A stretch of 64,000 nt of DNA from Friedmanniella luteola. Lineage in GTDB: Bacteria; Actinomycetota; Actinomycetes; Propionibacteriales; Propionibacteriaceae. The translations under genes and the position numbers were made by a program. The notes under the pieces were generated by a model. It had not been told where the DNA came from. It saw nothing but the letters and a program-made list of their open reading frames with translations, and did not search any database. The stretch is from assembly GCF_900105065.1 (NCBI RefSeq), contig NZ_LT629749.1:2108001-2172000 (forward strand), read 5' to 3'. Positions 42,300-58,897 of this stretch are shown piece after piece (within the stretch, counting starts at the first letter, position 1; each line of letters opens with the position of its first letter).

Positions 42300-43256
42300 A
42301 TGAGCGTCATCTCCGAGCTCTCGAGCATCAGCCGCACCAAGGCCAGGACCCCGGAGGAGAGGCGGCGGCGGGCGAAGGAGGCCGGCCGGGACGACAAGGC
42401 GGGCTACCTCTTCCTGCTGCCGTGGCTGATCGGCCTGGTGGTGATCACCATCGGGCCGATGCTGGCCTCGCTCTACCTGTCGTTCACCGACTACAGCCTG
42501 ATCCAGCCGCCGGAGTGGAGCGGTCTGGACAACTACGCCCGGATGCTCCAGGACGCCCGGCTGCACAACTCGATCAAGGTCACCTTCACCTACGTGCTGG
42601 TCTCGGTGCCGCTGCAGCTGCTGCTGGCGCTCGGCATCGCGGTGCTCCTCGACAAGGGGATGCGCGGGCTCTCGCTCTACCGGTCGCTGTTCTACCTGCC
42701 CTCGATGCTCGGTGCCTCCGTCGCCATCGCGGTGCTGTGGCGGCAGATGTTCGGCGGCGAGGGGCTGGTCAACCAGCTGCTGCAGGCCGTCGGCATCAAC
42801 GCCACCACCGGCTGGATCTCCGACCCGTCCTACGCCCTGGGGACCATCATCCTGCTGCACATCTGGACGTTCGGGTCGCCGATGGTGATCTTCCTGGCCG
42901 GGCTGCGGCAGATCCCCGCCATGTACTACGAGGCGGCCGCCGTCGACGGGGCGAGCCGGTGGACGCGGTTCACCAAGATCACGCTGCCGCTGCTGTCGCC
43001 GATCATCTTCTTCAACCTCGTGCTGCAGGTCATCGGGGCCTTCCAGTCCTTCACCCAGGCCTTCGTCGTGTCCAACGGGACCGGTGGTCCGTCGGACTCG
43101 ACGATGTTCTTCACGCTCTACCTGTACCAGCGCGGCTTCGGGCAGTTCCAGATGGGCTACGCCTCGGCGATGGCCTGGCTGCTGGTGGTCATCGTCGGGG
43201 TCCTCACCGCCATCAACTTCTTCGCCTCCAAGTACTGGGTGTTCTACGATGACTGA
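42300..43256 (+). CDS. Sugar ABC transporter permease (MalF type)
   Basis: The 318-residue protein has six membrane spans from about residue 36 and the permease signature EAAAVDGASRWTRFTKITLPLLSP near residue 215, the EAA loop that contacts the ATPase. It starts 4 bases after the binding-protein stop. It forms the channel with the next gene's product. The following ATG lies inside its last codons (8-base overlap). Confidence 0.93.
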   Translation: MSVISELSSISRTKARTPEERRRRAKEAGRDDKAGYLFLLPWLIGLVVITIGPMLASLYLSFTDYSLIQPPEWSGLDNYARMLQDARLHNSIKVTFTYVLVSVPLQLLLALGIAVLLDKGMRGLSLYRSLFYLPSMLGASVAIAVLWRQMFGGEGLVNQLLQAVGINATTGWISDPSYALGTIILLHIWTFGSPMVIFLAGLRQIPAMYYEAAAVDGASRWTRFTKITLPLLSPIIFFNLVLQVIGAFQSFTQAFVVSNGTGGPSDSTMFFTLYLYQRGFGQFQMGYASAMAWLLVVIVGVLTAINFFASKYWVFYDD

Positions 43257-44163
43257 TCTCCAGACACGTCCGCAGACGGCCCCCCGAGGCGGCCCCGCCC
43301 CGGCGGCGACCTCGGAGCACCGACGGCACCTCCTGCTCGGTCGCGGCCGGTCGGTCCTCAAGCACGTGGTGCTGGTCCTCGTCAGCCTGGTGATGATCTA
43401 CCCGCTGCTGTGGATGCTCGTCAGCTCGTTCCGGCCGACCGAGGTGATCTTCCGCAGCCCCGGGCTCTGGGTCAACGACCTGATCACGACCAACTACACG
43501 TCCGGGTGGAACGCGCTCAGCAACCCCTTCGGCCACTACCTGCTCAACTCGGCGGTCGTGGTGGTCGGGGCGGTCGTCGGGAACCTGCTGTCGTGCTCGC
43601 TGGCGGCGTACGCGTTCGCCCGGCTGAAGTTCCGGCTGAAGACGCTGTGGTTCTCGATCATGCTCGTGACGATCATGCTGCCGATCCACGTGATCGTGGT
43701 CCCGCAGTACATCCTCTTCAACCAGCTGGGCTGGATCAACACCTTCATCCCGCTGGTGCTGCCCAAGTTCCTCGCCACGGACGCGTTCTTCGTGTTCTTG
43801 ATGGTCCAGTTCATCCGCGGCATCCCGCGCGAGCTGGACGAGGCCGCCCGGATCGACGGCTGCGGTCACGGGAAGATCTTCCTCCGGGTGATGATCCCGC
43901 TGATGGGCCCGGCGCTCGCCACCACCGCGATCTTCACCTTCATCTGGACCTGGAGCGACTTCTTCACCTCGCTCATCTACCTGACCGACCCGGACAAGTA
44001 CACCGTCCCGGTGGCGCTGCGGTCCTTCCTGGACTCCACCAGCGGCAGCAACTGGGGCGCCATGTTCGCGATGTCGATCGTCTCCCTCGTGCCGATCTTC
44101 CTGGCCTTCCTGTTCGGCCAGCGGTTCCTGGTCAAGGGCATCGCCACCACCGGCGGCAAGTGA
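43249..44163 (+). CDS. Sugar ABC transporter permease (MalG type)
   Basis: The 304-residue protein has six membrane spans and the EAA loop ELDEAARIDGCGHGKIFLRVMIPL near residue 200. The ending FGQRFLVKGIATTGGK is standard for MalG-type permeases. No ATPase gene is present in the window, so a shared MsmK-like ATPase encoded elsewhere must power the importer. Confidence 0.93.
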   Translation: MTDLQTRPQTAPRGGPAPAATSEHRRHLLLGRGRSVLKHVVLVLVSLVMIYPLLWMLVSSFRPTEVIFRSPGLWVNDLITTNYTSGWNALSNPFGHYLLNSAVVVVGAVVGNLLSCSLAAYAFARLKFRLKTLWFSIMLVTIMLPIHVIVVPQYILFNQLGWINTFIPLVLPKFLATDAFFVFLMVQFIRGIPRELDEAARIDGCGHGKIFLRVMIPLMGPALATTAIFTFIWTWSDFFTSLIYLTDPDKYTVPVALRSFLDSTSGSNWGAMFAMSIVSLVPIFLAFLFGQRFLVKGIATTGGK

Positions 44164-44227: not shown

Positions 44228-45559
44228 GTGACTGCCAGACGCCGCTACATCCTGGTCGGCACGGGCCACCGGGCGCAGATGTACCTCGACGCGATCGCCG
44301 GCGCACACCGCGACGACGCCGAGCTCGTCGCCCTCGTGGAGCCGAACCCCGGCCGGCTCGCCGCCCACCTCGACCGGCTCGCCGGCACGGGCCTCGACGT
44401 CAGCGCGGTCGAGCGAGCCCACCCCGACGAGCTCGAGCAGGTCATCGCGCGGACCCGGGCGGACCGCGTGATCATCACCTCGCCCGACTACACGCACGCG
44501 GGGATGATCGTCCGCGGGCTGGACGCCGGCGTGGACGTCGTCGTCGAGAAGCCGCTGACCATCGACCCGGAGAGCGTGCGCCGGATCGCCGCGGCGGTGG
44601 AGAGCTCGGGCCGGCAGGTCGTCGTCACCCACAACTACCGCTACTCCCCGCGGAACTCCGGTCTCAAGGAGCTGATCAAGGACGGCGCCGTCGGCCGCCC
44701 GCTCTCGGTGACGTTCGAGTGGGTGCTGGACACCGCCCACGGGGCCGACTACTTCCGTCGCTGGCACCGCGACAAGGCGAACTCGGGCGGACTGCTGATC
44801 CACAAGGCCTCCCACCACTTCGACCTGATCAACTGGCTGCTGGCCGACGCGCCCGTCTCGGTGTACGCGCGGGGAGGGGTGCTCTTCTACGGGGCCGAGG
44901 CCGCCGCCGGGCGCGGCCTGGCGCCCAGCCCACCGCGCGGCACCCACGACGGCGAGCACACGCCCTGGGAGCTGGACCTGCGCAGCGACGCGTGGATGAA
45001 GACGCTCTACCTCGACAACGAGGCCCACGACGGTTACCTGCGCGACCAGGACGTCTTCGGCGAGGGCATCACCACCGAGGACAACCTGGCTCTCGTCGTC
45101 GACTACGGCCGCGGGGCGACGCTCAGCTACGCGCTGAACGCCCACGCGCCCTGGGAGGGCTACCGGATCGCCGTCAACGGCACCGAGGGCCGGGCCGAGC
45201 TCGAGGTCGTCGAGCGGGCCGCCGTGCTCACCGACGCGGAGGGCCGCGTCGTCGTCGACCCCAGCGCGCTGCCGGCGTCCTCGAGCCGGTCCGGCGGCGA
45301 GCGGCTGACCCTGCAGCGGCACTGGGAGGCGGCGCAGGACGTCAAGATCGAGCAGGGCGAGGGGGGCCACGGCGGTGGGGACGCCCTGCTGCTGGCCGAC
45401 GTCTTCCGCGGCCCGGGCGACGACTGGCTCGAGCGACCGTCCACCTGGGTGGACGGCGTCCGCTCCATCGCCGTCGGCCTGGCCGGCAACGAGTCGCTGC
45501 GGACCGGGCTGCCCGTCCGGGTGGCCGACCTCGCGCTCGGCGTGGAGGTGGCGCGCTGA
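44228..45559 (+). CDS. Gfo/Idh/MocA family oxidoreductase
   Basis: The 443-residue protein has a Rossmann start [36 protein letters not shown], the catalytic-region motif VVVEKPLTI near residue 110 and [18 protein letters not shown]; a His pair occurs in [14 protein letters not shown]. Unusual length comes from a long C-terminal part with [13 protein letters not shown]. It probably oxidises or epimerises a sugar at C3 using NAD(P). The GTG at 44228 follows GAGAGAAG. The glycosidase gene follows with an overlapping start. Confidence 0.88.
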
Positions 45560-48135
45560 CCTCCCACCCCGGTCCTGCGGCCCTGCGGGCCGGGTTCGCC
45601 CGGCCGCCGCGCACCGCCGCTCCGATGGTGCGCTGGTGGTGGTTCGGCCCGTCCGTGCGCCGCGACGAGCTGGACCGGGAGCTGACGGCGATGGCCCGGG
45701 CGGGCTTCGGCGGGGCGGAGGTCTCCTACGTCTACCCCCTCGGGCCGGTCGAGCACCCGCTGCTGTCGGCGGGCTTCCTGGCCGACCTCCGCTTCGCGGC
45801 GGAGCGGGCGGCGGCGCTGGGCCTGCGGTTCGACCTCACCCTGGGCAGTGGCTGGTCCTTCGGAGGGCCCCACACGACCCCCGAGCTCGCCGCCCGCAAG
45901 CTGCGCTGGGAGCGCCGGGAGATCGGTCCTGGTCCCCTCCGGGTCCCGGTGGTCGCGGCCTGGCCCGGTGACGCGCTGGTCGCCGCCTTCGTCGGGGCCG
46001 GCTCGCTGCAGGAGCAGCCCGAGGCGTGGCAGCCGGTCCCCGTCGTGGACGGGGTCCTGGAGGTCCCGGACGGGACCGGCACCCGGGTGGTGCTGCTGGC
46101 CACCGCCCAGCACACCGGCCAGAACGTCAAGCGCGCTGCGGTGGGCGCCGAGGGCCCGGTCCTCGACCACTACAGCGCCGCCGCGACGGACGCCCACCTG
46201 CGCGCGGTGGCCGACCCGCTGCTCGACGCGGTCCCCGCCTCGCTGCTCGGCTCGGTGTTCTGCGACAGCCTGGAGGTGTACGAGGCCGACTGGACGCCTG
46301 CGCTGCCCGAGGAGTTCGCCCGACGCTGCGGCTACCCGCTGCTCCCGGTGCTGCACGCCCTGGCGGCCGACGGCCCCGACAGCGCCCGGGTGCGGGCCGA
46401 CCACCACCGGACGCTGGTGCAGCTCTACGAGGAGAACTTCGTCCAGCGGATCCAGCGGTGGGCGTCCGCCCGCGGGGTCCCGTTCCGGCTCCAGGGTTAC
46501 GGCACCCCGCCCGCGACCGTCAGCAGCTACCGGTTCGCCGACCTGCCGGAGGGGGAGGGCTGGGGCTGGAAGACGGTCACCCAGACACGCTGGGCCTCCT
46601 CGGCCGGGCACCTCTACGACCGTCCCGTCATCTCCTCCGAGGTGTGGACCTGGGTGCACTCGCCCTCGTTCCGGGCGACGCCGCTGGACCTCCAGGGCGA
46701 GGCTCACGACCACCTGCTCAACGGCGTCAACCAGCTGGTCGGGCACGGCTGGCCCTGCTCACCGCCCGACGCCCCGGGCCTCGGCTGGTTCTTCTACGCC
46801 GCCGGCGCGATCGACGACCGGAACCCGTGGTGGGCCGCCATGCCCGGGCTGAACGCCCAGCTCACCCGGCTCTGCTGGCTGCTGCGGCAGGGCGACCCGG
46901 TGGCCGACGTCGCGGTCTACGTCCCCGACGAGGACCTCTTCGCCACGATGGGCACGGCCGTCGGCGGCTCCCTGGACCTCTGGCGGGAGGCCCGCGGGCG
47001 GATCGGGGACGGCGTCCCCGCGGCGGTCCGGGAGTCCGGCCTGGACTACGACCTCGTCGACGACGACGCCCTCGCCGTCGTGGCGCCCGACCGCTACCGG
47101 GTGGTCGTGCTGCCCGCCACCACCACGGTGCCGGCGGCCACGGCCAGCTGGCTCGACCACGTGAGCGCCGCCGGGGGGACGGTGCTGCGGCTGGGCTCGA
47201 GCGTGGACGTGCCCGGAGCCGTCGACGTCGTCGCCGAGGACCTGGCCCAGGCCCTGCTGGCCGCCGTCGCCCCCGATCTCGCCCTGGCCCCCGACAGCCC
47301 GGACCTCGGCTTCGTCCACCGCCACCTGCCCGACGCCGACGTCTACCTGCTGGCCAACACCGGGCCCGCCGACCGGACCGCCGAGGTCACGCCACGCGCG
47401 GAGCGGTCCTGGTGGGCGGTCTGGGACGCCCGCACCGGCGACGTCCGGCGGACGGGGCCGGCCGCGGAGCCGCTCGTGCTCACCCTGGAGCCCTACGAGG
47501 CGGTGGTGCTGGTGCTGACCGACGACGAGCCCGCCGCTCCGACCGTCCCGGCGCCGCCCGGCGGTGCCGCACGGGTCCAGCCGCTCGCCGACGGCTGGCG
47601 GGTGGCCTTCGACGCCGGGCCCGACGAGCCGGTGGCGCTGCCGCACCTCTGGGAGGAGCAGCCGGGACGGCGCCACCACGCGGGGGCGGCCGTCTACCGG
47701 ACCGCCTTCGAGCTGGACGGCCTGGGCCCGGGTGCGGTCGTCGTGCTGGACCTGGGCAGCGCCGAGGTGCGGGACGACGACGCCCAGCCCGTGCACGTCG
47801 GGATGGTCGGGCCCTCCTACCGGGCGGCGGCGCGGCCCCCGGTGGGCGAGGTCGCCACGGTCCGCGTCAACGGCGTCGACTGCGGCCTGGTGTGGGCTCC
47901 GCCCTACCGGGTGGACGTCACGGCCGCCGTCCGGGCCGGGCAGAACCGGCTGGAGGTGGAGGTCGCGAACACGGCGGCCGGGGCGCTGGCCGCCGACGAG
48001 CACATCGGCCCGCTGGCCGCGGCGAGCGAGGAGCGCCACGGGCGCCGGTTCCGGATGCAGCAGCTGGACCGAGCCCTGGACACCGTCCGGTCGGGTCTGC
48101 TCGCCGTCCCGGTGCTGCGGATCCGCGAGCCCTAG
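45556..48135 (+). CDS. GH106-like glycoside hydrolase (alpha-L-rhamnosidase family), CTG start
   Basis: The protein of about 859 residues carries the family opening [24 protein letters not shown] and [12 protein letters not shown], a barrel with [13 protein letters not shown] and [12 protein letters not shown] (likely acidic catalytic region), and a C-terminal galactose-binding-like jelly roll ending [22 protein letters not shown] and [11 protein letters not shown]. No signal peptide is seen, so it acts on imported oligosaccharides. The only ATG (45625) would delete the conserved N-terminus. A CTG at 45556, four bases after GGAGGTGG and overlapping the upstream TGA, is the best start. Confidence 0.8.
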
Positions 48136-48161
48136 CTGGACGAGCCGTGGACGAAGTCAGA

Positions 48162-48821
48162 CTAGACGACCAGTTCCTCCACGGCTTGTCGGCCGGCCAG
48201 CGAGGCCGCCCGCGCCCGGAGACCGTCGAGGTCGCCGCTGGTGAGGGTGTCGCCGAACAGCGCCGCGCTGACGCCGACGGCGACCGCACCGAGGCGCAGG
48301 TACTCGGCCGCCGCCTCCAGCGTGACGCCGCCCGTCGGCATCAGCGCCACGTCGGGCAACGGGCCCCGCAGCTCGCGGAGGTAGTCCAGGCCGCCCAGCG
48401 GTCCGATGGGGGACACCTTGACGGCGGGCACCCCCGTCTCCCAGGCCGAGACGATCTCGGTGGGGGTCAGCGCGCCCGGCACGTAGCTGAGGCCGAGCGC
48501 GACGGCGGCCTCCACCAGCCGCGGCAGGAAGACCTGGCTCACCGCGAAGTGGGCGCCCGCGTCGGCCGCGCGCCGCAGGTCGTCCGGCGTCCGGACGGTG
48601 CCCACGCCCAGCACGGCGTCGGGCAGCGCCTCCCCCGCCGCCGTCAGCGCGTCGAGCGCCCCCTCGGTGGTCAGGGTGTACTCGAAGACGCCGAGGCCGG
48701 CCTCGTGCAGCGTCCGGGAGGAGGCGACGAAGTGCCGGGCGTCGGGGGCCCGCATCACGGCGACCACCGCCCCGGGCGGGAGCGCGGAGCGGCGGCGGTC
48801 CGGCGTGGTCGAACTGGTCAT
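48162..48821 (-). CDS. KDPG/KHG aldolase family protein (Eda-like)
   Basis: The 219-residue protein is a class-I aldolase barrel: VVAVMRAPDARHFVASSRTL, the catalytic-region Glu in VFEYTLTTEGAL, VGVGTVRTPDDL, AVSQVFLPRLVE, and the Schiff-base Lys in PAVKVSPIGPLGG, closing with MPTGGVTLEAAAEYLRLGA. It should cleave a 2-keto-3-deoxy acid (phosphorylated or not) to pyruvate plus an aldehyde. It is convergent with the glycosidase and has its own promoter and LacI-type operator 30 bases upstream. Confidence 0.88.
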   Translation of the reverse strand: MTSSTTPDRRRSALPPGAVVAVMRAPDARHFVASSRTLHEAGLGVFEYTLTTEGALDALTAAGEALPDAVLGVGTVRTPDDLRRAADAGAHFAVSQVFLPRLVEAAVALGLSYVPGALTPTEIVSAWETGVPAVKVSPIGPLGGLDYLRELRGPLPDVALMPTGGVTLEAAAEYLRLGAVAVGVSAALFGDTLTSGDLDGLRARAASLAGRQAVEELVV

Positions 48822-48850
48822 GCGATCCCCTCGTGGGCGTCCGTGTCGGC

Positions 48851-48866
48851 GAGAAAGCGCTTCCTC
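48851..48866. promoter_or_regulatory. LacI-type operator upstream of the aldolase gene
   Basis: GAGAAAGCGCTTCCTC is a near-perfect palindrome matching the importer operator at 11 of 12 core positions. It lies between the predicted promoter and the ATG at 48821. Confidence 0.75.
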
Positions 48867-48881
48867 ACCGCTGGTCCGGGG

Positions 48882-48911
48882 AGCCTACCGCCGACGTCGC
48901 GGCCCCGGCAA
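48882..48911 (-). promoter_or_regulatory. Promoter of the aldolase gene
   Basis: On the minus strand TTGCCG (48911-48906) and TAGGCT (48887-48882) are 18 bases apart. The predicted start near 48875 puts the operator at about +10 to +25, a normal repressor position. Confidence 0.6.
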
Positions 48912-48925
48912 CGAGGCCGGCGCGG

Positions 48926-50038
48926 TCAGAGGGCGTCGCCGAGGAACCGCCAGGCCTCGTCCTGCATCGGCCCGTCGAAGACGTGCCCACCCGGCCGGAG
49001 GCGGCCGCGGTACCGGTCCCCGCCGGCGTGCAGCTCCTGCAGCCGGGCGTGGGCGGCCCGCATCCCCGCGGGCGGGAAGAGCGGGTCGGACTCCTGGTAC
49101 TGGACCAGGAACCGGGCCCGGCCCAGGGCGGTGAGGTCGGGCCAGTCGCGCCAGGCGGCCAGCCGGGGCACGTGCAGCAGCCACGAGTGGCTGTCCAGGT
49201 GGGCGGGCACGAGGGAGGCGGACGTCGCCATCATGCAGCTGACGACGGCGGCCCGCAGCCGGTGGTCCAGCGCGGCGAGCAGCAGGCCGCGCCCGCCGCC
49301 CCCGGAGAACCCGAACGCGCCGAGCCGGTCCGCGTCCGTGCCCGGGTCGGCGGCCAGCACCTCGAGGGCGACCAGGTCGTCGGCCACCACCAGGCCGGCG
49401 AAGGTCTGGCCGAGCACGCCGGCCGCCTTGGCGAGGGTGTCCTCGTGCAGGTTCGCGAGGACGTCGAAGCGCTCGTCCGGGTCGAGCGCGACCCCCAGCT
49501 CGCGCCAGCGGGCCTCGTGGGCCTCGAACTGGGCCGCCAGCCGCGGCGTCGGCCGGCTGAGGTCGAAACGGCGGCTGCCCCAGGAGAACGCGTCGTGCAC
49601 GAGCACCGCCACGCCCCGCCGGGCGAGGTCGTTGGCGGGCGCCCGGCCGTCGTACCAGTCCTGCCGCAGCCGGACCGCCCGTGGAGCCGTGCCCGGTCCG
49701 GAGTCGACCAGCTGCTCGCCGCCCACCGAGCGGACGCCGCCGTGGCAGTGCAGGCCGAGCACGCCGGGCAGCGGTCCGTCGACGCCCGCCGGGCGGAGCA
49801 ACCAGCCGGTCGTGTCCGGTCCGAAGCCCACCGACCAGCGCAGCCGCCGCACGGCGACGCCGTCCACCGTGCTGCTGCCCTCGTCGTGCACCCGCGGGGC
49901 GGGGGACCGGGCCGGCAGCCCCAGGATCTGGCCGAGCGCGGTGCTCTCCGCGTCGGCCCCGACGAAGGGCGCGGCCGCCCGCGCTGCCGCCGGCCAGTCG
50001 GGGTAGCCGGCCAGGGCGTCCGGCGACGGCGGCGTCAG
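48926..50038 (-). CDS. Acetyl-xylan-esterase/dienelactone-hydrolase-like esterase
   Basis: The protein of about 370 residues has LPGVLGLHCHGGVRS (oxyanion region), the nucleophile elbow GAFGFSGGGGRGLLL (Ser near residue 240), the acid in QYQESDPLFPP and the His in RPGGHVFDGP. It resembles the large alpha/beta hydrolases that deacetylate carbohydrates. No signal peptide is seen, so intracellular deacylation of imported sugars fits. No ATG, GTG or TTG exists at a sensible N-terminus; a CTG at 50038 overlapping the LacI stop as CTGA is the best start. Confidence 0.75.
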   Translation of the reverse strand: MTPPSPDALAGYPDWPAAARAAAPFVGADAESTALGQILGLPARSPAPRVHDEGSSTVDGVAVRRLRWSVGFGPDTTGWLLRPAGVDGPLPGVLGLHCHGGVRSVGGEQLVDSGPGTAPRAVRLRQDWYDGRAPANDLARRGVAVLVHDAFSWGSRRFDLSRPTPRLAAQFEAHEARWRELGVALDPDERFDVLANLHEDTLAKAAGVLGQTFAGLVVADDLVALEVLAADPGTDADRLGAFGFSGGGGRGLLLAALDHRLRAAVVSCMMATSASLVPAHLDSHSWLLHVPRLAAWRDWPDLTALGRARFLVQYQESDPLFPPAGMRAAHARLQELHAGGDRYRGRLRPGGHVFDGPMQDEAWRFLGDAL

Positions 50039-51072
50039 GAGGCGGCCTCGGCGCCGACCGTGCGGGCCGGCGCCGGGCCGGTGCTGCCGCGCACCTCCAG
50101 CCGCGGCCGGAACAGGATGGTGTGGCCGGGGGCGCGGGAGCCCAGCAGCTCGGCCATCCGGTGCCAGGCCTGCTCGCCCAGCTCGGTCACCGGGACCGAG
50201 GCCGTGGTGAGCGGCGGGGTCAGGTAGCGGGCGAAGGGGATGTCGTCGAAGCCGGTGACCGACACGTCGTCGGGCACCCGGACCCCGCGCTCGCCGAGAG
50301 CGCTCATCAACCCCATCGCGACCAGGTCGTTGAAGGCCAGCACGCCCGTGGCGCCGGAGGCGAGGACGCCGTCGGCCGCATCGTGCCCCTCGGCGAAGTT
50401 GACCCCGCAGGGCTCGACCCGGACCGCGACGTCGGGGTGCTCGGCCGAGAAGGCGCGGAGCGCGGCCAGCCGCTGGAGGTTCGACGAGCTCTGGGGGGCC
50501 CCGGCGAGGTAGAGCAGGGTGCGGTGCCCCTCGGCCCGCAGCAGGTGGAGCAGCTCGGTCAGCCCGCTGCGGTAGTCCGCGGTCACGGCCGGGGTGCCGG
50601 TGGAGCGCGCCTCGCGGTTGACCAGCACCACCGGCTGCAGCTGGGTCAGCAACCGCTCCAGGTCGTCCTCGGGCATCCGCGGGGCGCAGAGGACGATGCC
50701 GTCGCACCGCCGCCGCGTCTCGACCGCCAGGATGCGCTCCTCCTCGACCGACTCCACGGAGTCGGCGACCAGCACGTGGTAGCCGTCCCGGGCCGCAGCC
50801 CGGCTGAGGCCGCGCAGCACGCCGTGGAACGTCGGGTTCTCCAGGTCGGGCACGACGACCGCGACGGTGTTGGTGCGGCCCAGCACGAGGCTGCGGGCCA
50901 GCGGGCTGGCGGTGTAGTCGAGCGCGTCGGCGGCCGCGCGCACCTTGGCGGCCAGCGCCTCGTCCACCCGGGCGTTGCCGTTCAGGACGCGCGACACCGT
51001 GGAGAGCGAGACGCCGGCGCGGGCCGCCACGTCGGCGATGGTGCGCGAGCGCTCGTGCGGTCGACCGGTCAC
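50035..51072 (-). CDS. LacI family transcriptional repressor
   Basis: The 345-residue protein starts with a standard LacI headpiece, TIADVAARAGVSLSTVSRVL, and a hinge helix ASPLARSLVLGRTN, then a periplasmic-binding-like sugar domain (VAVVVPDLENPTFHGVLRGL, FNDLVAMGLMSAL, SVTGFDDIPFARYLTPPLTT). It is the only LacI protein in the island and the obvious reader of the four GAAAGCGCTTTC-type operators. The start is a GTG at 51072 behind GGAGGGAG. One operator lies upstream of its own gene, pointing to autoregulation. Confidence 0.92.
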   Translation of the reverse strand: MTGRPHERSRTIADVAARAGVSLSTVSRVLNGNARVDEALAAKVRAAADALDYTASPLARSLVLGRTNTVAVVVPDLENPTFHGVLRGLSRAAARDGYHVLVADSVESVEEERILAVETRRRCDGIVLCAPRMPEDDLERLLTQLQPVVLVNREARSTGTPAVTADYRSGLTELLHLLRAEGHRTLLYLAGAPQSSSNLQRLAALRAFSAEHPDVAVRVEPCGVNFAEGHDAADGVLASGATGVLAFNDLVAMGLMSALGERGVRVPDDVSVTGFDDIPFARYLTPPLTTASVPVTELGEQAWHRMAELLGSRAPGHTILFRPRLEVRGSTGPAPARTVGAEAAS

Positions 51073-51145
51073 CCGGGGTCTCCCTCCTTCGGCTCGTCAT
51101 CCCTGCTGACCACCCGACCGCTCTCCCGTCCGGTAGCCGCTCCGC

Positions 51146-51178
51146 ATCCTATCGTGTAGCGTGAAAACGCTTTCTCAC
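51146..51178. promoter_or_regulatory. LacI-type operator in the divergent lacI/epimerase promoter
   Basis: GTGAAAACGCTTTCTCAC at 51161-51178 is an imperfect palindrome matching the other sites. To its left, TAGGAT on the minus strand (51151-51146) is a -10 box for the repressor gene, and TAGCGT at 51157-51162 could serve the rightward genes. Confidence 0.7.
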
Positions 51179-51222
51179 GCCTGGCGACGAGGCCGGGTCC
51201 GAGCACAGACAGGGGCCAGCCC

Positions 51223-52164
51223 ATGGACCACCGCGACCTCACGCCCACCCCGCCCAGCCGCGTGCTGGTCACCGGAGGGGCGGGCCGGCTGGGCCGGACC
51301 GTCGTCGCCGGCCTGCGGGAGCGGGGCCACACCGTGGTCTCGGTCGACCGGGAACCGGGCGACGACCCCGGGAGCCTGGTTGCCGACCTCACCGACGCCG
51401 CCGCGACCGAGGCCGTGCTGGCCGACGTCCGGCCCGAGGCCGTGGTCCACCTGGCGGCCATCGCCGTGCCGTTCAGCGCCCCGGAGCCGGTGATCCTGCA
51501 GACCAACACGATGCTGGCGTGGACCGTGCTGTCGGCGGCGGTCGCCGCGGGTGTGCCGAAGGTCGTCGTGGCCAGCAGCCCGACGGTCCACGGCTACGGC
51601 GCGCCCACCGGCTGGGTGCCGGCGTCGCTGCCGCTGGACGAGGAGTCCCCGGCCCGGCCCTGGAACGCCTACAGCCTCTCCAAGCTGACCGCCGAGCACG
51701 TCATGCGCACCCTCGTCGCCCAGGTGGGGGACCGGGTGCGGTTCGCCGCCTTCCGGCCCTGCTTCGTCATCGCGCCGGAGGAGTGGCACGGGGCGCTGAC
51801 CCAGCAGGGCCACACGGTCGCGGAGCGGCTGGCCAACCCCGCCCTGTCCGCGCCGGCCCTGTTCAACTACCTCGACGCCCGGGACGCGGCGTCCTTCGTC
51901 GACGCGCTGCTGGCCGGCCTGCCCGACATCCCCAACGGCGAGACCTTCCTCGTGGGCGCCGACGACGCGCTGGCCACGGCGCCGCTGGCCGAGCTGCTGC
52001 CCCGGTTCCACCCCGGCACAGCCGCTGCCGCGCAGGCGCTCACCGGCACCGCCCCGGCGTTCGCCAACGGCAAGGCGCGGCGGCTGCTGGGCTGGCGGCC
52101 GCAGCACAGCTGGCGGACCGCCCTGGTCGACGCGCCGCGCGCCGCGGCCGGGGCGGTGCGGTGA
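51223..52164 (+). CDS. NAD-dependent epimerase/dehydratase family protein, uronate-dehydrogenase-like
   Basis: The 313-residue protein is an extended SDR: VLVTGGAGRLGRTVVAGL, Asp after strand 2 (VVSVDREPGDD, favouring NAD), VVHLAAIAVPF, VASSPTVHGYG and the catalytic Tyr/Lys pair in NAYSLSKLTAEH. The short length and the AAIAVPF segment resemble uronate dehydrogenases, which oxidise galacturonate or glucuronate to the aldaro-lactone. It opens a run of overlapping genes of acid-sugar enzymes, which supports that role. Confidence 0.8.
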   Translation: MDHRDLTPTPPSRVLVTGGAGRLGRTVVAGLRERGHTVVSVDREPGDDPGSLVADLTDAAATEAVLADVRPEAVVHLAAIAVPFSAPEPVILQTNTMLAWTVLSAAVAAGVPKVVVASSPTVHGYGAPTGWVPASLPLDEESPARPWNAYSLSKLTAEHVMRTLVAQVGDRVRFAAFRPCFVIAPEEWHGALTQQGHTVAERLANPALSAPALFNYLDARDAASFVDALLAGLPDIPNGETFLVGADDALATAPLAELLPRFHPGTAAAAQALTGTAPAFANGKARRLLGWRPQHSWRTALVDAPRAAAGAVR

Positions 52165-53273
52165 CGACGGGCACCGACGGTCCCCGCCTGGTCGAGCTGC
52201 GGACCCGGCGGCACGTCGCCCGGCTCCGGCGACCGTGGGGGCCGGACGTCGGCGTCAACCACGTCCTCGAGGTGACGGTCGTCGACAGCACGGGCGCGAC
52301 GGGGACCGGCTTCAGCTGGACCCCGAGCATCGGCGCCGAGGCCGTGCACGCCCTGCTGGAGCACGACATCAGCGCCGCCGTGGTCGGCGGGCCGGTCGAC
52401 CCGGAGGTCGTCTGGCCGGCCCTGTGGTCGCGGCTGCACGAGGCCGGCTCGGGCGGGCTGACCACCATCGCGATGGCCGGCCTCGACCTCGCCCTGTGGG
52501 ACCTCGCCGGCCGCCGGTCGGGGCGCTCCCTCGTCGACCTGCTGGGCGCGCGGCGCGCGGGCGTCGCGGTCTACGGCAGCGGGGTCAACCTGCACTACCC
52601 GCTCGAGGAGCTGGTGGCCCAGGCGCGGCGCTGGGTGGAGGCCGGGTTCGCCAGCGTCAAGATCAAGGTCGGGGGCCCCGACCTCGCCGTCGACCACGAG
52701 CGGGTGGCGGCCGTGCGGGCGGTGATCGGTCCCGAGCGGGGGCTGATGCTCGACGCCAACCAGCGCTGGGACCTGGCGACGGCGACGGCGGCGATGGCCG
52801 TCCTCGAGGAGCACGCCCCGGCCTGGATCGAGGAGCCGCTGCGCGCGGACGACCTCGCCGGCCACGCCGAGCTGCGCCGCCGGATCGCCACCCCCGTCGC
52901 GATGGGGGAGAACCTGCACACCGTGTACCGCTTCCGCGACGCCCTCGACCTCGGCGCCTGCGACATCGTCCAGCCCAACGTCGTCCGGGTGGGCGGCATC
53001 ACCCCGTTCCGCAGCATCGCGGCGCTGGCCGACGAGCGCGGTGTCGCGCTGCACCCCCACCTGCTGCCCGAGATCTCCGGCCAGCTGGCCCTCACGCTGA
53101 CCCGGCCCTGCCTGGTGGAGGAGGTCGAGGACGCCTCGCTGACCGCCCTCGGGCTGCTGGCCGACCCGCCGCCGGTGGTGGTGCAGGACGGCGAGCTGCG
53201 CGTGACCGGGAGCCCCGGACTGGGCCTCGACTTCTCCGGCGCCCTCGTCGGCGCGTCGGGACGTCCGGCGTGA
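52161..53273 (+). CDS. Enolase-superfamily acid-sugar dehydratase (mandelate racemase group)
   Basis: The 370-residue protein has the full mandelate-racemase-type active site: the Lys-x-Lys pair in SVKIKVGG near residue 165, metal ligands in LMLDANQRW, WIEEPL and AMGENL, Asp in CDIVQPNVVRVGG, and His in LHPHLLPEISG. These residues support dehydration of an aldonic or aldaric acid to a 2-keto-3-deoxy acid. The substrate cannot be fixed from sequence. The GTG start overlaps the upstream stop as GTGA, and the next gene overlaps its stop in the same way. Confidence 0.88.
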   Translation: MTTGTDGPRLVELRTRRHVARLRRPWGPDVGVNHVLEVTVVDSTGATGTGFSWTPSIGAEAVHALLEHDISAAVVGGPVDPEVVWPALWSRLHEAGSGGLTTIAMAGLDLALWDLAGRRSGRSLVDLLGARRAGVAVYGSGVNLHYPLEELVAQARRWVEAGFASVKIKVGGPDLAVDHERVAAVRAVIGPERGLMLDANQRWDLATATAAMAVLEEHAPAWIEEPLRADDLAGHAELRRRIATPVAMGENLHTVYRFRDALDLGACDIVQPNVVRVGGITPFRSIAALADERGVALHPHLLPEISGQLALTLTRPCLVEEVEDASLTALGLLADPPPVVVQDGELRVTGSPGLGLDFSGALVGASGRPA

Positions 53274-55264
53274 CGGGCGGGCCCGCCCGGGTCGTCCTCG
53301 TCGGCGTCCGCGGCTTCGGGGCCGTGCACGCGGCCCGGATCGCCGGGCTGCAGCAGCAGGGGCGGGTCGAGCTGGTGGCCTGCGTCGACCCGGTCGTGGT
53401 GGCCGACCCGCCGGTCGCGCACGGGGTCCCGCTGCACCCCGACCTGCCCGCGGCCCTGGCCGTCGCCGGCCCGGTCGACGTCGTCGTGGTGGCCGCACCG
53501 CTGGGCGAGCACTTCGTCCTGGCCGAGACCGCCCTGCGGGCGGGCGCGGACGTGCTGCTGGAGAAGCCGCCGGTCGCCTCGCTCGACGACTTCGCCCGGC
53601 TGCTCGCCACGGAGACCGCCACCGGCCGGGTGGTGCAGGTCGGCTTCCAGAGCCTGGGCTCGGACGGGTTGGAGGCCTTCGCCGCGGACGCGTTCGAGAT
53701 CGGCGCGGTCACCCACGTCGGTGCCGTCGGGGCCTGGTCGCGCCCGCGCGCCTACTGGGAGCGCTCGCCCTGGGCCGGCCACCGCAGCCTGGACGGCCGC
53801 GCCGTCGTCGACGGGGTCGCCACCAACCCGCTCGCGCACGCCGTGGCCACCGCCCTGGCCCTGGTGCGCGCCCGCACCGTCGACGACGTGCGGGCGGTCG
53901 ACGTGGACCTGTACCGGGCGAACGCCATCGAGAGCGACGACACCTCCGTGGTCCGCGTCCACACCACCGGCGGGCGGACGGTCACCTGCGCGCTGACCCT
54001 GTGCGCGCCCGTGCAGCGGGAGCCGGTGCTGCACGTGCACGGCCCCGGCGGGTCGGCCGACTACCGCTACACCACCGACGAGGTGGTCGTCCACGGACCC
54101 GACGGACCCCGGACCCAGGTCCTCGGCCGCGAGGACCTGCTGGAGAACCTGCTCGCGCACCGCCGCACGGGTGAGCCGCTGCGGGTCCCGCTGGTCAGCA
54201 CGGGGGCGTTCATGCGGGTGCTGGCCGCGGTGGCCGACGCCGACGACCCCGTCCGCATCGACCCGCGAGCCATCCGCTGGGTGGGCGAGGGGCCGGACCG
54301 GTACCCCGTCGTCGACGACGTGGAGCACTGGCTGGAGCGGGCGGCCTCCACCGGCCGCACCTTCCGGGAGCTCGGGGTGCCCTGGGCGCACGCCGGCCGC
54401 GACCGCGTGCTGGTGCGGCTCCGGGTCGAGGGCCACCGCGTCGCCGACTACCACGACGGGGCCGGCACGCTGCCGACCTCCACCCCACGGCCGGTGCTGC
54501 ACCCGGTCTCGACGCTCACCGGGGTGCGGGTGTCCGCGCAGCACCCGGCCGACCACGACTGGCACACCGGTGTCGGGCTGGCCGTCCCCGACGTCGACGG
54601 CACCAACCTCTGGGGCGGTGGCACCTACGTGCACGGCCAGGGCTACCGGCTGCTGGACGACCACGGCCGGGTCGACGGTGAGCCCCCGCTGGTCACCGAC
54701 GGCGGGTTCCGCCAGCGGCTGGCGTGGCGGAGCCGCGACGGCGCCGTGCTGCTCGAGGAGCAGCGGACGGTCCGCTGGGGGCCCCTCGACGGCCGGGCCT
54801 GGCACCTCCACCTCGGCACGGTGCTGCGCGCCGGGCGCGGCGCGACGGTGGGCTCGCCGGGCAGCAAGGGCCGCCCCGACGGCGGCTACGGCGGCTTCTT
54901 CTGGCGGTTCCCGGCCTGCGCGGACGTCGACGTCCTCACCGCCGACGCCCGGGGCGAGCAGGCGGTGCAGGGCACCGTCAGCCCCTGGGTGGCGTGGGCG
55001 GCCGACTTCACGGCCGCCCCCGGGGTCAGCGGCCCGGCGACGGTGGTGCTGTCCTCCCCGTCGGCCGCCGACGCGGGGGACCCCTGGTTCGTCCGGGTCC
55101 GCGACTACCCCGGGCTCGGCTCCGCCCTCGCCTGGCGGGACCCGGTGGTGCTGCCCCCGGGCGGCGAGCTCGCCCGGCGGTTCGACGTCGCCGTCGTCGA
55201 CGGCCGGCTGAGCCCCGCCGAGGCCGCCGACGTGGCCGCCGCGCTGGTCGGGGTGCGGGCATGA
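53270..55264 (+). CDS. Gfo/Idh/MocA oxidoreductase fused to a DUF6807 (PmoA) domain
   Basis: Residues 1-360 of 664 form a Gfo/Idh enzyme: VVLVGVRGFGAVHAARI, VVVVAAPLGEHFVLAETAL, the motif VLLEKPPVA near residue 95, then VDGVATNPLAHAVATAL. Residues from about 375 form a DUF6807 domain: LHPVSTLTGVRVS, DHDWHTGVGLAV, NLWGGGTYVHGQG and GGYGGFFWRFPA. DUF6807 proteins are frequent neighbours of Gfo/Idh genes in sugar loci but a fusion is less common. The pairing implies a two-step conversion of the same sugar derivative. Confidence 0.85.
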   Translation: MTGGPARVVLVGVRGFGAVHAARIAGLQQQGRVELVACVDPVVVADPPVAHGVPLHPDLPAALAVAGPVDVVVVAAPLGEHFVLAETALRAGADVLLEKPPVASLDDFARLLATETATGRVVQVGFQSLGSDGLEAFAADAFEIGAVTHVGAVGAWSRPRAYWERSPWAGHRSLDGRAVVDGVATNPLAHAVATALALVRARTVDDVRAVDVDLYRANAIESDDTSVVRVHTTGGRTVTCALTLCAPVQREPVLHVHGPGGSADYRYTTDEVVVHGPDGPRTQVLGREDLLENLLAHRRTGEPLRVPLVSTGAFMRVLAAVADADDPVRIDPRAIRWVGEGPDRYPVVDDVEHWLERAASTGRTFRELGVPWAHAGRDRVLVRLRVEGHRVADYHDGAGTLPTSTPRPVLHPVSTLTGVRVSAQHPADHDWHTGVGLAVPDVDGTNLWGGGTYVHGQGYRLLDDHGRVDGEPPLVTDGGFRQRLAWRSRDGAVLLEEQRTVRWGPLDGRAWHLHLGTVLRAGRGATVGSPGSKGRPDGGYGGFFWRFPACADVDVLTADARGEQAVQGTVSPWVAWAADFTAAPGVSGPATVVLSSPSAADAGDPWFVRVRDYPGLGSALAWRDPVVLPPGGELARRFDVAVVDGRLSPAEAADVAAALVGVRA

Positions 55265-56322
55265 CCGGGCTCGCACCCGCCGTCGTCACGACGTCGGCCG
55301 ACCACGCCGAGAAGCGGCGCCGGCTGCTGGCGGTCCTGGACGGCACGGGCGCCGAGGCGCTGGCGCTGACCGGTTCGACGGCGCTGGCCTGGTACCTCGA
55401 CGGGGCGCGCAGCCACGTCAGCCTGGCCGCCGACCCGGTGCTCGCCGTCCGGGTCAGCCGGGACGCCGACGAGGTCCTGCTCACGAGCAACGAGACGGCC
55501 CGGCTGGTCCGCGAGGAGCTGCCCGGCTGGCTGACCGTCTGCGAGCGGCCCTGGTACGCGGGGCGGCCCGACCTCCACGCGCGGCCCGAGACCGCCCTGG
55601 CCGACGCCCTGCTGCGGGCCCGCTCGCCGCTGCTGCCGGTCGAGACCGAGCGGTTCGCCCGGCTGGGCGCCGACGCGGCGACCGCCCTGACCGACGTCCT
55701 CGCCGTCGCGGAGCCGTCCTGGACCGAGCGCCGGCTGGCGGGCGAGGTCGCCCGGGCCGTCGTGGAGCGCGGGGCCGACCCCCTGGTCGTCCTCGTCGGC
55801 GGCGAGGACCGTGCCCACCTGCCCCACCCGCTGCCCACCGGCGGCCCGCTGGGCCGCCGGGTCCTGGTCGTGCTGTGCGCCCGGCGGCACGGGCTGGTGG
55901 TGAACCTGAGCCGGGCCCTCGCCTTCGGAGACCTCGACGCGGCCGAGCGGGACGTCCAGGACCGGGTGCTCGCCGTGGAGCAGGCCGCCCTCGACGCGCT
56001 GGCCCCCGGGGTCACGCTGGCGGAGGTCCTGGGGGTGGTCGGCCGGGCCTACGCCACCCAGGGTTTCGGCGCCGACCACTGGCGCGGGCACCACCAGGGC
56101 GGCGTCGCCGGCTACGCCGGCCGGGACCCGCGCGCCACCCCCGACTGCTCCTTCTCCGTCGCGGTCGGCCAGGCCTTCGCCTGGAACCCGTGGGTGCCCG
56201 GGGGGAAGGTCGAGGACACCGTGCTGCTGGGCGACGACGGCCTGGAGGTGCTCAGCGTCGACCCGCGCTGGCCGTCCGTCCGGGTCGGCGGCCGCCGCCG
56301 GCCCGTCGTCTGGGAGCGCTGA
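55261..56322 (+). CDS. M24-fold (aminopeptidase P/creatinase-like) protein lacking obvious metal ligands
   Basis: The 353-residue protein has a creatinase-like N-terminal domain (AEKRRRLLAVLDGTGAEALAL) and a pita-bread domain with HHQGGVAGYAG, FAWNPWVPGGKVEDTVLL and a final VLSVDP strand. In active M24 peptidases two Asp ligands sit in the strand region that here reads HGLVVNLSRALAFGD, and neither is present at the expected place. The protein is therefore probably not a metallopeptidase and may act as a creatinase-like hydrolase or binder. It overlaps the upstream gene as ATGA. Confidence 0.7.
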   Translation: MTGLAPAVVTTSADHAEKRRRLLAVLDGTGAEALALTGSTALAWYLDGARSHVSLAADPVLAVRVSRDADEVLLTSNETARLVREELPGWLTVCERPWYAGRPDLHARPETALADALLRARSPLLPVETERFARLGADAATALTDVLAVAEPSWTERRLAGEVARAVVERGADPLVVLVGGEDRAHLPHPLPTGGPLGRRVLVVLCARRHGLVVNLSRALAFGDLDAAERDVQDRVLAVEQAALDALAPGVTLAEVLGVVGRAYATQGFGADHWRGHHQGGVAGYAGRDPRATPDCSFSVAVGQAFAWNPWVPGGKVEDTVLLGDDGLEVLSVDPRWPSVRVGGRRRPVVWER

Positions 56323-56386
56323 CCCGCCAGCGGGCCCGCCCCACCACCCACGCCGCCCCCGGGCGGCCGAGAGGACACGCGACACC

Positions 56387-57277
56387 ATGAGCACCATCGC
56401 CTTCGTCGGGCTCGGCATCATGGGCGGCCCGATGGCCGCCCACCTCGTGCGCGCCGGCCACACCGTGCGGGGCGTCAACCGCAGCCCCGCGGCCGTCCAG
56501 CGGCTGGTCGAGGCCGGCGGCCAGGACGGCGGCAGCGTCGCGGAGGCCGTCCGGGACGCCGACGTGGTCATCACCATGGTCCCGGACTCCCCGGACGTCG
56601 AGGCCGTGGCGCTCGGCCCGGACGGGATCTACGCCCACGCCCGCCCCGGGGCGCTGCACGTCGACATGTCCTCGATCCGCCCGGACGTGGCCGTCGGCCT
56701 GGCCGCGACCGGGGCGGCGGCCGGCGTCCGGGTGCTCGACGCCCCCGTGAGCGGCGGGCAGGCGGGCGCCCAGGAGGCCACGCTCTCGATCATGGTCGGC
56801 GGCGAGGTGGACGCCTTCGCCGCGGCCCGGCCGCTGCTCGAGGTGATGGGCAGCACCGTCGTCCACGTCGGTCCGGCCGGCTCCGGCCAGACGGTCAAGG
56901 CGGCCAACCAGCTGGTGGTGGGCGGCACCTACCAGCTGCTCGCCGAGGCGATCGTCTTCCTGCGCGCCCACGGTGTCGACGACGAGGCGGCGCTCCGGGT
57001 GCTGGCCGGCGGCCTCGCGGGGAGCACTGTGCTGGACCGCAAGGGCGCCGCCATGCTGGCCGGCCGCTTCGAGCCGGGGTTCCGGGTGGACCTGCACCAC
57101 AAGGACATGGGCATCGTCACCGCCGCGGCCCGGGAGCAGGGCGTCGCCCTGCCCCTCGGGGCGCTGACCGCCCAGCTGATCGGCGCCCTCCGCGCCCAGG
57201 GCGACGGCGGGCTCGACCACTCCGCCCTGCTGCGCGGCGTCGAGCGGCTGTCCGGCCGCCCGGTGAGCGGGGACTGA
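56387..57277 (+). CDS. 2-hydroxy-3-oxopropionate (tartronate semialdehyde) reductase-like enzyme
   Basis: The 296-residue protein belongs to the beta-hydroxyacid dehydrogenases: IAFVGLGIMGGPMAAHLVRAGH, VNRSPAA (NADP-type Arg), LDAPVSGGQAGAQEATLSIMVGG as substrate motif, the catalytic Lys in GQTVKAANQLVVG, and HHKDMGIVTAAA. The expected reaction is reduction of tartronate semialdehyde to D-glycerate, the last step of aldarate breakdown. It follows the M24-like gene by 64 bases with its own GAGAGGA ribosome site and closes the acid-sugar gene run. Confidence 0.85.
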   Translation: MSTIAFVGLGIMGGPMAAHLVRAGHTVRGVNRSPAAVQRLVEAGGQDGGSVAEAVRDADVVITMVPDSPDVEAVALGPDGIYAHARPGALHVDMSSIRPDVAVGLAATGAAAGVRVLDAPVSGGQAGAQEATLSIMVGGEVDAFAAARPLLEVMGSTVVHVGPAGSGQTVKAANQLVVGGTYQLLAEAIVFLRAHGVDDEAALRVLAGGLAGSTVLDRKGAAMLAGRFEPGFRVDLHHKDMGIVTAAAREQGVALPLGALTAQLIGALRAQGDGGLDHSALLRGVERLSGRPVSGD

Positions 57278-57361: not shown

Positions 57362-58897
57362 TCAGCTGGGGGTGACCGCCACCTCCACGACGGCCCAGGA
57401 CAGCGCCGGCAGCGTCACCGCGAGCGCGCCGTCCTCGAGGACCGCGCCGTCCCAGTCGACGAGGCCGACCGGCGAGGCGTCGGCGGTGTTCGCGCTGAAG
57501 CGGTCACCGCCCTCCGGCGTCGCGAGCACCCGGGCCGACACGACCTGGTCGGCCGTGAAGCCGTGCAGGGGCACCGTGACCTCGGCGGCCTCGTCGAGGC
57601 TGCGGTTGGCCAGGAAGAGGGCGATCCGGCCGGTCGCCGCGTCCCAGGTCGCGCTGGCGTCGACCAGGTCGGCCTCGCCGTACCGGGCGGTGGTGTAGTG
57701 GTCGGACGTGACGGACAGCCGCAGGATCTCCCCGGACGCCGTCTGCGCCATCGCGGCGAACGGGTAGAAGATCGTCTGCCGCCAGGCGGGGCCGCCCTCC
57801 TGGGTGCGGACCAGGCCGAGCAGGTTGACCAGCTGCGCCTGGTTGGCGATCTTGACCCGGTCCCCGTGCCGGAGCAGCGAGTTGAGCAGGGTGCCGACGA
57901 CGACGGCCTCGGTCACGTCGTAGTCGCCCTCGCCGATCGGCGGGTGCTCGGCCCAGTTCCGGGTGATCTCGGCCTCGGTGGCGACCGGGTGCTCCGGGTC
58001 GTGCCGGTAGGACACGTTCCACTCGTCGAAGGAGAGGTTGATCGTCTTGGTGTGCCGGTCGCGCGCCCGGACGAAGTCGGCGGTCGCGACGACGGCCTCG
58101 ATGAAGCGGTCCATGTCGACGCCGCTGGCCAGGAAGCTGCCGACGTCGCCGTCGGAGTCGGCGTAGTAGACGTGCAGCGAGATGTAGTCGACCAGCGCGT
58201 AGGTGTGGGTGAGGACCGTCTGCTCCCAGGCCCCGAAGGTCGGCATCGAGAGGTTGGAGCTGCCGCACGCGACCAGCTCCAGCGAGTCGTCGATCATCCG
58301 CATCGCCCGCGCGGCCTCCGCCGCCAGCCGGCCGTACTCGTCCGCGGTCTTGAAGCCGATCTGCCAGGGGCCGTCCATCTCGTTGCCGAGGCACCACAGC
58401 TTGATGCCGAAGGGCTCCTCGGCCCCGTTCCGGCGGCGCAGGTCGGAGAGCTCGGTGCCGCCGGGGTGGTTGGCGTACTCCAGCAGCGCCCGGGCCGCCG
58501 CGACGCCGCGCGTGCCGAGGTTGACCGCCTCCATGATCTCGACGTCGGCCTGCCGCGCCCAGTCGACGAACTCGTGCAGGCCGAAGGCGTTGGTCTCCAG
58601 GGTGTGCCACGCGCCGTCCAGCCGCCGCGGACGCTGCTCGACCGGCCCGACCCCGTCCTCCCAGTCGTAGCCCGAGACGAAGTTGCCGCCGGGGTAGCGG
58701 ACGACGCTGACGCCCAGCTCGCGGGTGAGCTCGAGGACGTCCCGGCGCAGCCCGTCCGCGCCGGCCTCGGGATGACCGGGTTCGTAGATCCCCGTGTAGA
58801 CGCAGCGGCCCATGTGCTCCACGAAGGAGCCGAAGAGCCGGCGCGGGACCGGTCCCAGGGTGAAGTCGCGGTCGACGGTGACACGTGCCTGGACCAA
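57362..58897 (-). CDS. abfA: GH51 alpha-L-arabinofuranosidase, TTG start
   Basis: The 511-residue protein is a complete GH51 enzyme: LFGSFVEHMGRCVYTGIYEPG, VVRYPGGNFVSGYDWEDG, the acid/base Glu in CLGNEMDGPWQ near residue 173 and the nucleophile Glu in SFDEWNVSYRH near residue 292. It releases terminal arabinofuranose from oligosaccharides; with no signal peptide it works inside the cell. The TTG at 58897 is chosen because GAGGAAGG lies just upstream. A GTG at 58927 lies at or before the predicted transcription start, which follows a TAGCGT box at 58935-58930. Confidence 0.92.
   Translation of the reverse strand: MVQARVTVDRDFTLGPVPRRLFGSFVEHMGRCVYTGIYEPGHPEAGADGLRRDVLELTRELGVSVVRYPGGNFVSGYDWEDGVGPVEQRPRRLDGAWHTLETNAFGLHEFVDWARQADVEIMEAVNLGTRGVAAARALLEYANHPGGTELSDLRRRNGAEEPFGIKLWCLGNEMDGPWQIGFKTADEYGRLAAEAARAMRMIDDSLELVACGSSNLSMPTFGAWEQTVLTHTYALVDYISLHVYYADSDGDVGSFLASGVDMDRFIEAVVATADFVRARDRHTKTINLSFDEWNVSYRHDPEHPVATEAEITRNWAEHPPIGEGDYDVTEAVVVGTLLNSLLRHGDRVKIANQAQLVNLLGLVRTQEGGPAWRQTIFYPFAAMAQTASGEILRLSVTSDHYTTARYGEADLVDASATWDAATGRIALFLANRSLDEAAEVTVPLHGFTADQVVSARVLATPEGGDRFSANTADASPVGLVDWDGAVLEDGALAVTLPALSWAVVEVAVTPS

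Follow-up and report, generated by a model that had tools for sequence, protein, structure and literature searches.

We analysed a window of 64,000 nucleotides from Friedmanniella luteola (NZ_LT629749.1, positions 2,108,001 to 2,172,000 of the forward strand; the window is this whole stretch), which holds a gene cluster for a putative acid-sugar pathway, Table 1. Translation and profile searches with Pfam and NCBIfam confirm the enzymes named in an earlier sequence-only reading: a Gfo/Idh oxidoreductase (Gfo1), a GH106-like glycosidase, an Eda-type aldolase, an esterase-like hydrolase, an extended short-chain dehydrogenase/reductase (SDR), an enolase-superfamily (MR) enzyme and GarR. That reading listed a second Gfo/Idh enzyme and DUF6807 separately, but they are one fused protein (Gfo2-DUF6807), and it missed the ABC transporter (40991-44163) and the gene of an M24-fold protein. 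Four-base overlaps link the SDR, MR, Gfo2-DUF6807 and M24 genes in an operon-like way, and for the GH106-like (45556) and esterase-like (50038) genes CTG is the sole start codon at the overlap with the preceding gene. A second genome of the genus (locus L034) has the gene set in identical order, and much of the set is found in 80 further loci described below. The arrangement is therefore more than chance.

Table 1. Genes and operator sites of the cluster, with positions in the window, strand and the evidence for each (scores in bits).
Feature	Position	Strand	Evidence
Distal LacI-type operator before the transporter operon	40740-40751	+	0 expected in 100 shuffles
Proximal LacI-type operator, before the SBP gene	40955-40966	.	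similar stretch in L034
ABC sugar substrate-binding protein (SBP)	40991-42295	+	PF01547 71
ABC permease	42300-43256	+	PF00528 48.4
ABC permease	43249-44163	+	PF00528 69.5
Gfo1, Gfo/Idh oxidoreductase	44228-45559	+	PF01408 and PF02894
GH106-like glycosidase	45556-48135	+	PF17132 160.9; start uncertain
Eda-type (KDPG/KHG) aldolase	48162-48821	-	PF01081 128.9; TIGR01182 162.6 (cut-off 156.05); alignment to 1eua
LacI-type operator upstream of the Eda gene	48853-48864	+	also in G211
Alpha/beta-hydrolase, esterase-like	48926-50038	-	AXE1 19.6, sub-threshold (cut-off 21); start uncertain
LacI-family regulator	50035-51072	-	PF00356 and PF13377
LacI-type operator in the lacI/SDR intergenic region	51163-51174	.	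like sites in relatives
Extended SDR, proposed uronate dehydrogenase-like	51223-52164	+	Epimerase PF01370 104.9; uronate dehydrogenase (Udh) entries among PDB matches
Enolase-superfamily MR enzyme (MR_MLE), proposed aldarate dehydratase or aldarolactone cycloisomerase	52161-53273	+	PF13378 207.8
Gfo2-DUF6807 fusion (Gfo/Idh dehydrogenase and mutarotase-like beta-supersandwich domain)	53270-55264	+	DUF6807 190.4; model pLDDT 93.7
M24 (pita-bread) fold protein	55261-56322	+	M24 48.6; alignment, conservation in 39 sequences, fold comparison
GarR, tartronate semialdehyde (2-hydroxy-3-oxopropionate) reductase	56387-57277	+	TIGR01505 354.8 (cut-off 340.75)

To follow the cluster in relatives we used two samples. 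A scan of named genomes by SDR alignment gave 526 relatives; the best 80, ranked by similarity, are the named loci, which are dominated by Microbacterium and Arthrobacter-like genera and are not independent. According to tblastn (E <= 1e-8) the SDR and the LacI regulator are present in all 80, Gfo1 and MR in 79 each, a KdgD relative in 75, an aldehyde dehydrogenase (ALDH) in 69, M24 in 57, DUF6807 and the esterase-like hydrolase in 43 each, Gfo2 in 37, GH106 and Eda in two each and GarR in one. SDR and MR occur together in 79 loci, 75 of which have a KdgD relative; in relatives of the cluster such a gene sits between SDR and MR. The cluster had been described as not a standard uronate locus, and this holds against textbook loci, but its Gfo1-SDR-MR core is shared by 79 of the 80. 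The second sample comes from a class-wide search of 296 genomes with the Gfo2-DUF6807 protein, in which 224 had matches, often weak ones; nine genomes among the matches listed, the own genome included, have a single match spanning both parts (one with an internal stop). Of 40 stretches fetched through these relatives, all have Gfo2 and 35 have DUF6807 (>130 bits). MR is present above 250 bits in 16, accompanied by the SDR in 15 and KdgD in 14; the two MR stretches with no KdgD are L034, which has Eda and GarR, and L062 (20 kb), which has neither.

The cluster is also marked by a common operator. The palindrome GAAARCGYTTYC, a LacI-type operator, has four copies in the window and none in 100 shuffles. 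They precede three transcription units: two lie before transporter-Gfo1-GH106, one before Eda and one in the LacI/SDR intergenic region. The copy next to the SBP gene is directly 3' of a TTGACA / TAGGGT pair with a 17-base spacer, read by eye. In the whole 4.7-Mb genome the operator is found at seven places, four of them inside the cluster; in genome G211 four of six copies are in the cluster, in the Microlunatus genome with locus L094 two of three, and the backward pattern, taken as a control, gives 0 in these three genomes. The genome behind L074 has a single copy, before the transporter operon; it carries little weight as the control also gives one. Operator-like sites lie between LacI and SDR in L034 and L094, and between LacI and Gfo1 in L035, L098 and L127. 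At least one site is found in 77 of the named loci, and in 71 a site lies 400 bp or less upstream of the Gfo1-SDR pair; shuffling single bases in five rounds, a weaker null than a dinucleotide shuffle, gave none. These shared operators support a predicted single regulon, and by their positions it would begin at the ABC transporter (40991). Operators of this kind can also serve other LacI proteins, and one of the three genomic copies outside the cluster precedes another LacI-like gene (by eye). In both genomes of the genus another LacI gene recognised by eye stands beside a Gfo/Idh-like gene, with the same operator in the divergent promoter region (L204:6000, L207:6260).

The two core enzymes keep the residues of their superfamilies. 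In the SDR, S118/S119, Y150 and K154 are invariant among 18 sequences, as in an extended-SDR fold with catalytic Ser/Tyr/Lys, and the family has a conserved PEEWxGAxTQxGHT-like segment. We propose that it is Udh-like and would oxidise galacturonate or glucuronate. In MR the lysines of the KxK motif (K167, K169), the metal ligands D198, E224 and E250 and the C-terminal H300 are invariant among 15 sequences. It may be a dehydratase or, like Gci, a lactone cycloisomerase, and either would lead to the same 2-keto-3-deoxy-hexarate, following the pathway outlined in the available text of PMC6353982.

Behind this core, the two endings do not occur together in the loci examined. With matches above 100 bits, 75 named loci have KdgD only, two have Eda only, three have neither and none has both; Eda is thus found in 0 of 75 loci with KdgD and in two of five without it (Fisher p 0.003, computed on loci that are not independent). 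Of these five, L074 and L094 have Eda; the others are L131, L145 (11 kb, ending just past the SDR) and L151. L131 (Microbacterium oryzae) and L151 (Jiangella endophytica) have SDR and MR, but no KdgD, Eda or operator within the stretch covered. A close KdgD is missing from the whole genomes of the window, G211, L094 and L074, where the best match has 87 bits and identity does not exceed 37%. The name KdgD rests on PRK03620, whose subfamily cut-off of 278 bits is exceeded by all three relatives scanned (383.1-396.5 bits).

The window aldolase passes TIGR01182, and its E47 and K135 occupy the positions of Glu45 and Lys133 in 1eua, whose Arg49 corresponds to Thr51. By this family score and the presence of the Schiff-base lysine and the glutamate it is assigned to the KDPG/KHG (Eda) family, and its neighbour genes suggest that it acts as an aldolase of 2-keto-3-deoxy-hexarate (5-keto-4-deoxy-glucarate, 5-KDG). 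GarR is above the equivalog cut-off of TIGR01505 and below that of PRK11559 (271.6 against 397). Locus L074, from a metagenome-assembled genome of Propionibacteriaceae, has a minus-strand run of Eda, glycerate kinase (TIGR00045 384.2, cut-off 168.45), GarR (TIGR01505 433.1 and PRK11559 483, both above cut-off) and galactarate/talarate dehydratase (TalrD/GalrD, NF047820 684.7, cut-off 500), and this run adjoins SBP-permease-permease-Gfo1-SDR-MR-Gfo2-DUF6807-M24 genes. In the own genome a glycerate kinase is found outside the cluster (C1:4231082, PF02595 417.2 bits).

The best reading of the locus is a known kind of pathway, oxidative uronate/aldarate degradation, with a swapped ending and an undeciphered front end. 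We put at roughly 57% the probability that this is a LacI-controlled actinobacterial locus for uronide import and trimming, followed by an oxidative hexuronate route that ends in pyruvate and tartronate semialdehyde and then glycerate; gene content, conservation, shared operators and the occurrence of Eda only in those examined loci that lack KdgD are read from sequence, and every substrate and reaction is inferred from them. The ABC transporter would import a small saccharide or glycoside containing uronic acid, which would be trimmed inside the cell by the GH106-like glycosidase and the esterase-like hydrolase, with Gfo1, Gfo2-DUF6807 and the M24 protein in further steps. The SDR would oxidise the released hexuronate, most likely D-galacturonate, at C1 to an aldarolactone or aldarate, MR would convert this to 5-KDG, and the aldolase would cleave 5-KDG to pyruvate and tartronate semialdehyde. 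GarR would then give D-glycerate, and the glycerate kinase would complete the route. In most relatives the same SDR-MR core, together with the KdgD relative and an aldehyde dehydrogenase, would give 2-oxoglutarate. An acid-sugar route to pyruvate and a C3 acid had already been proposed from the sequence alone; GarR above one equivalog cut-off, the KdgD relative between SDR and MR and the L074 run speak for it, but of its two suggested starts, an aldonic acid is less likely than a hexuronate.

According to the available text of PMC6353982, the oxidative hexuronate pathway of Agrobacterium and Pseudomonas uses Udh, (Gli), Gci or a lactonase with a dehydratase, KdgD and a ketoglutarate semialdehyde (KGSA) dehydrogenase. 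The cluster resembles it in the SDR and the enolase-superfamily enzyme, and the loci of relatives also in the KdgD relative and aldehyde dehydrogenase; unlike it, the window has no KdgD, adds Gfo1, Gfo2-DUF6807, the M24-fold protein, LacI and the ABC transporter, and its SDR and MR are distant relatives of the characterised enzymes. The E. coli gud/gar pathway has GarD/GudD, GarL, GarR and glycerate kinase, with a GudL variant that uses a DapA-like 5-KDG aldolase (PMC11775122, in the part available). The proposed ending is the same, from 5-KDG to pyruvate and tartronate semialdehyde and on through GarR and glycerate kinase, but the window aldolase belongs to the Eda family and resembles neither GarL nor the DapA-like enzyme, and the proposed route begins with a uronide, whereas gud/gar starts from an imported aldarate.

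Several observations weigh against the hexuronate assignment. The SDR is distant from characterised Udh: PDB entries named uronate dehydrogenase match it with 53.7-68.7 bits and the best PDB match, 4id9, is not named Udh. The SSNH segment of Udh, which we take to have a role in substrate recognition, aligns with SSPT in the window SDR, and P120 and T121 are invariant among the 18 sequences. In MR, the Asp of the usual His-Asp dyad is Asn273 in 15 of 15 sequences, while it is Asp in 2ovl, 5xd7, 5xd9, 2og9 and 2pp0, five chains that include 3,6-anhydro-L-galactonate cycloisomerase and TalrD/GalrD; the chemistry of the MR family may differ, given this invariant Asn. MR scores 239.9 with the TalrD/GalrD model against a cut-off of 500. 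Because of this low TalrD/GalrD score, the Asn in the dyad and the separate true TalrD in L074, MR may perform another reaction.

Further points on the same side concern the endings. The KdgD relatives fall under the KdgD equivalog cut-off (TIGR03249 303.4, 297.3 and 276.5 against 373.95), and the ALDH relatives reach no equivalog (78.3 of 770 with the 2-oxoglutarate-semialdehyde model). The L074 Eda run begins beside an IclR regulator gene recognised by eye, so that it may serve free aldarates. The L094 locus has Eda and no GarR; the best GarR of this Microlunatus genome (68%) is elsewhere, in what by eye is a glyoxylate cluster. In 28 other loci of the class with Eda relatives (best matches, some cut by contig ends), GarR or glycerate kinase is found within 1.5 kb in none. 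The own genome also has UxaC and ManD, and some free hexuronate may go another way.

As to the starting compound, E240, E334 and E362 of the GH106-like protein align with Glu461, Glu561 and Glu593 of 5mqm, presumably catalytic, and all three are invariant in five relatives; its AlphaRhamBT4145 equivalog score is 266.6, under the cut-off of 1300. As no signal peptide is evident by eye, it is likely an intracellular glycosidase. An acylated rhamnosyl-uronide, as suggested in the sequence-only reading, appears weak as a substrate: GH106 relatives are found in only two of the 80 named loci and two of the 40 stretches (L034, L067), the own genome has no match to GH28, PL1 or GH88/105 (E <= 0.001) and no rhamnose isomerase (RhaA) above cut-off (best 20.7 of 22 bits), and the esterase assignment is sub-threshold. 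In Curtobacterium ammoniigenes (L127:3612-6311) KdgD, ALDH and a GH106 relative (46%) share one locus, so that GH106 is not restricted to loci with the Eda ending. Relatives of the L038 pectinesterase-pectate lyase are found in seven of 16 other loci with MR (in L047 at only 34% identity), and in Pfam searches pectate lyase is above cut-off in L038, L041 and L048 and pectinesterase also in L038; other neighbours of the core are mixed. These pectin genes near the core, the lack of GH28, PL1 and GH88/105 in the own genome and its UxaC and ManD, an outfit that fits glucuronate use by the isomerase route, together favour, at low certainty, galacturonate taken from oligosaccharides made by other organisms.

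The most novel part of the locus is formed by the Gfo/Idh, DUF6807 and M24 proteins. The DUF6807 model is a galactose-mutarotase-like beta-supersandwich; its top structural matches are mostly carbohydrate-active proteins, none singled out, and it has conserved DHxxH and GGxFWR-type segments. A full-text literature search gave a single, incidental mention of DUF6807. The M24 protein (model pLDDT 92.4) has the prolidase/creatinase fold, but of the metal ligands of M24 metallopeptidases, which we take to be D, D, H, E and E, four of five are replaced (V204, N215, G281, R288) and only E318 is kept. Among 39 sequences V204, G281, R288 and E318 are invariant, as are His189, His277 and His278, and N215 is conserved in at least 90%. 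The esterase-like hydrolase has only weak PDB matches. In many Arthrobacter-like loci the esterase-like hydrolase, Gfo2, DUF6807 and M24 form a run, which together with the Gfo2-DUF6807 fusion suggests consecutive steps. In Microlunatus kandeliicorticis (L094:12088-14360), M24 directly follows Gfo2 and tblastn finds no DUF6807 in the locus.

We tentatively raise the possibility, which we consider doubtful, that Gfo1, Gfo2-DUF6807, M24 and the esterase-like hydrolase form an undescribed redox-assisted release of uronic acid from glycosides, which would feed the SDR/MR route with Eda as a third, independent solution for 5-KDG cleavage after GarL and GudL. Gfo2 would oxidise a ring hydroxyl, the fused mutarotase-like domain would open or eliminate the activated bond, and the M24 protein, which lacks most metal ligands, would carry out a further non-peptidase step. 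Comparable systems are deglycosylation through 3-keto-glycosides and beta-elimination (PMC10628242 and PMC7676230, as far as available) and the DUF1080 3-keto-glycoside hydrolases (PMC9007349, likewise). As far as these texts go, they too place a Gfo/Idh-type dehydrogenase beside an uncharacterised carbohydrate-fold protein, to which it is fused in the window; unlike them, the scanned cluster proteins show no TIM-barrel eliminase, hydratase or DUF1080, and have DUF6807 and the M24 fold instead.

The cluster has neighbours on both sides. A GH51 arabinofuranosidase gene facing it and a sugar-porter gene adjoin at 57362-60518, likely an arabinose unit. Upstream of the transporter is a large open reading frame (37463-40492) that looks secreted by eye and matches DUF608 (GH116) at noise level.

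Among other explanations, an unlikely one is a pentose route, in which SDR and MR would act on L-arabinose or D-xylose by oxidation and dehydration. The KdgD relatives would then be 2-keto-3-deoxy-pentonate dehydratases (Weimberg type), and the window Eda would split the 2-keto-3-deoxy-pentonate into pyruvate and glycolaldehyde (Dahms type). The adjoining GH51 and porter genes agree with it, as do the sub-equivalog scores of the KdgD relatives; DHDPS-family dehydratases and ALDHs are also used in pentose routes, and pectin-linked loci would provide arabinose too. However, no exact operator copy precedes GH51 or the porter, GarR is above the tartronate-semialdehyde equivalog cut-off, L074 joins Eda with TalrD and glycerate kinase, and MR is nearer to TalrD/GalrD (239.9 bits) than to arabinonate dehydratase (113.2 bits).

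It is slightly less probable still that Eda and GarR are ordinary enzymes placed here by chance, with the SDR-MR product consumed by an enzyme encoded at another place in the genome. The Eda models include both KDPG and KHG aldolases, and the GarR of the Microlunatus relative in its glyoxylate cluster would agree with this. The Eda gene, however, has its own operator copy, in G211 as well; another Eda is encoded in the genome at C1:4166082 (140.5 bits), a close KdgD is not, and none of the 75 named loci with KdgD has Eda. A rhamnose route, in which GH106 would free L-rhamnose, SDR, MR and Eda would act through 2-keto-3-deoxy-rhamnonate to pyruvate and lactaldehyde, and GarR would reduce the lactaldehyde, is very improbable. 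In its favour, the GH106-like gene directly follows Gfo1 with the three aligned Glu kept, and with RhaA below cut-off an oxidative route would be needed. Against it, the relatives are accompanied by KdgD relatives and ALDH, no GH106 match is found in 78 of the 80 named loci, and MR scores 104.5 bits with the rhamnonate dehydratase model, far below the cut-off of 393.

The hexuronate reading predicts the use of uronic acids by many Microbacterium, Arthrobacter and related genomes. It proposes a natural swap of endings behind one core, a KdgD relative with ALDH (to 2-oxoglutarate) against Eda with GarR (to pyruvate and glycerate). Should 5-KDG be the substrate of the aldolase, a third protein family would join GarL and GudL, the two unrelated enzymes reported for this reaction (available part of PMC11775122). 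The locus also offers a concrete candidate substrate class for DUF6807 and for a family of M24-fold proteins that lack most metal ligands, and the enzymes beside the core may hint at a route of sugar release that has not been described.

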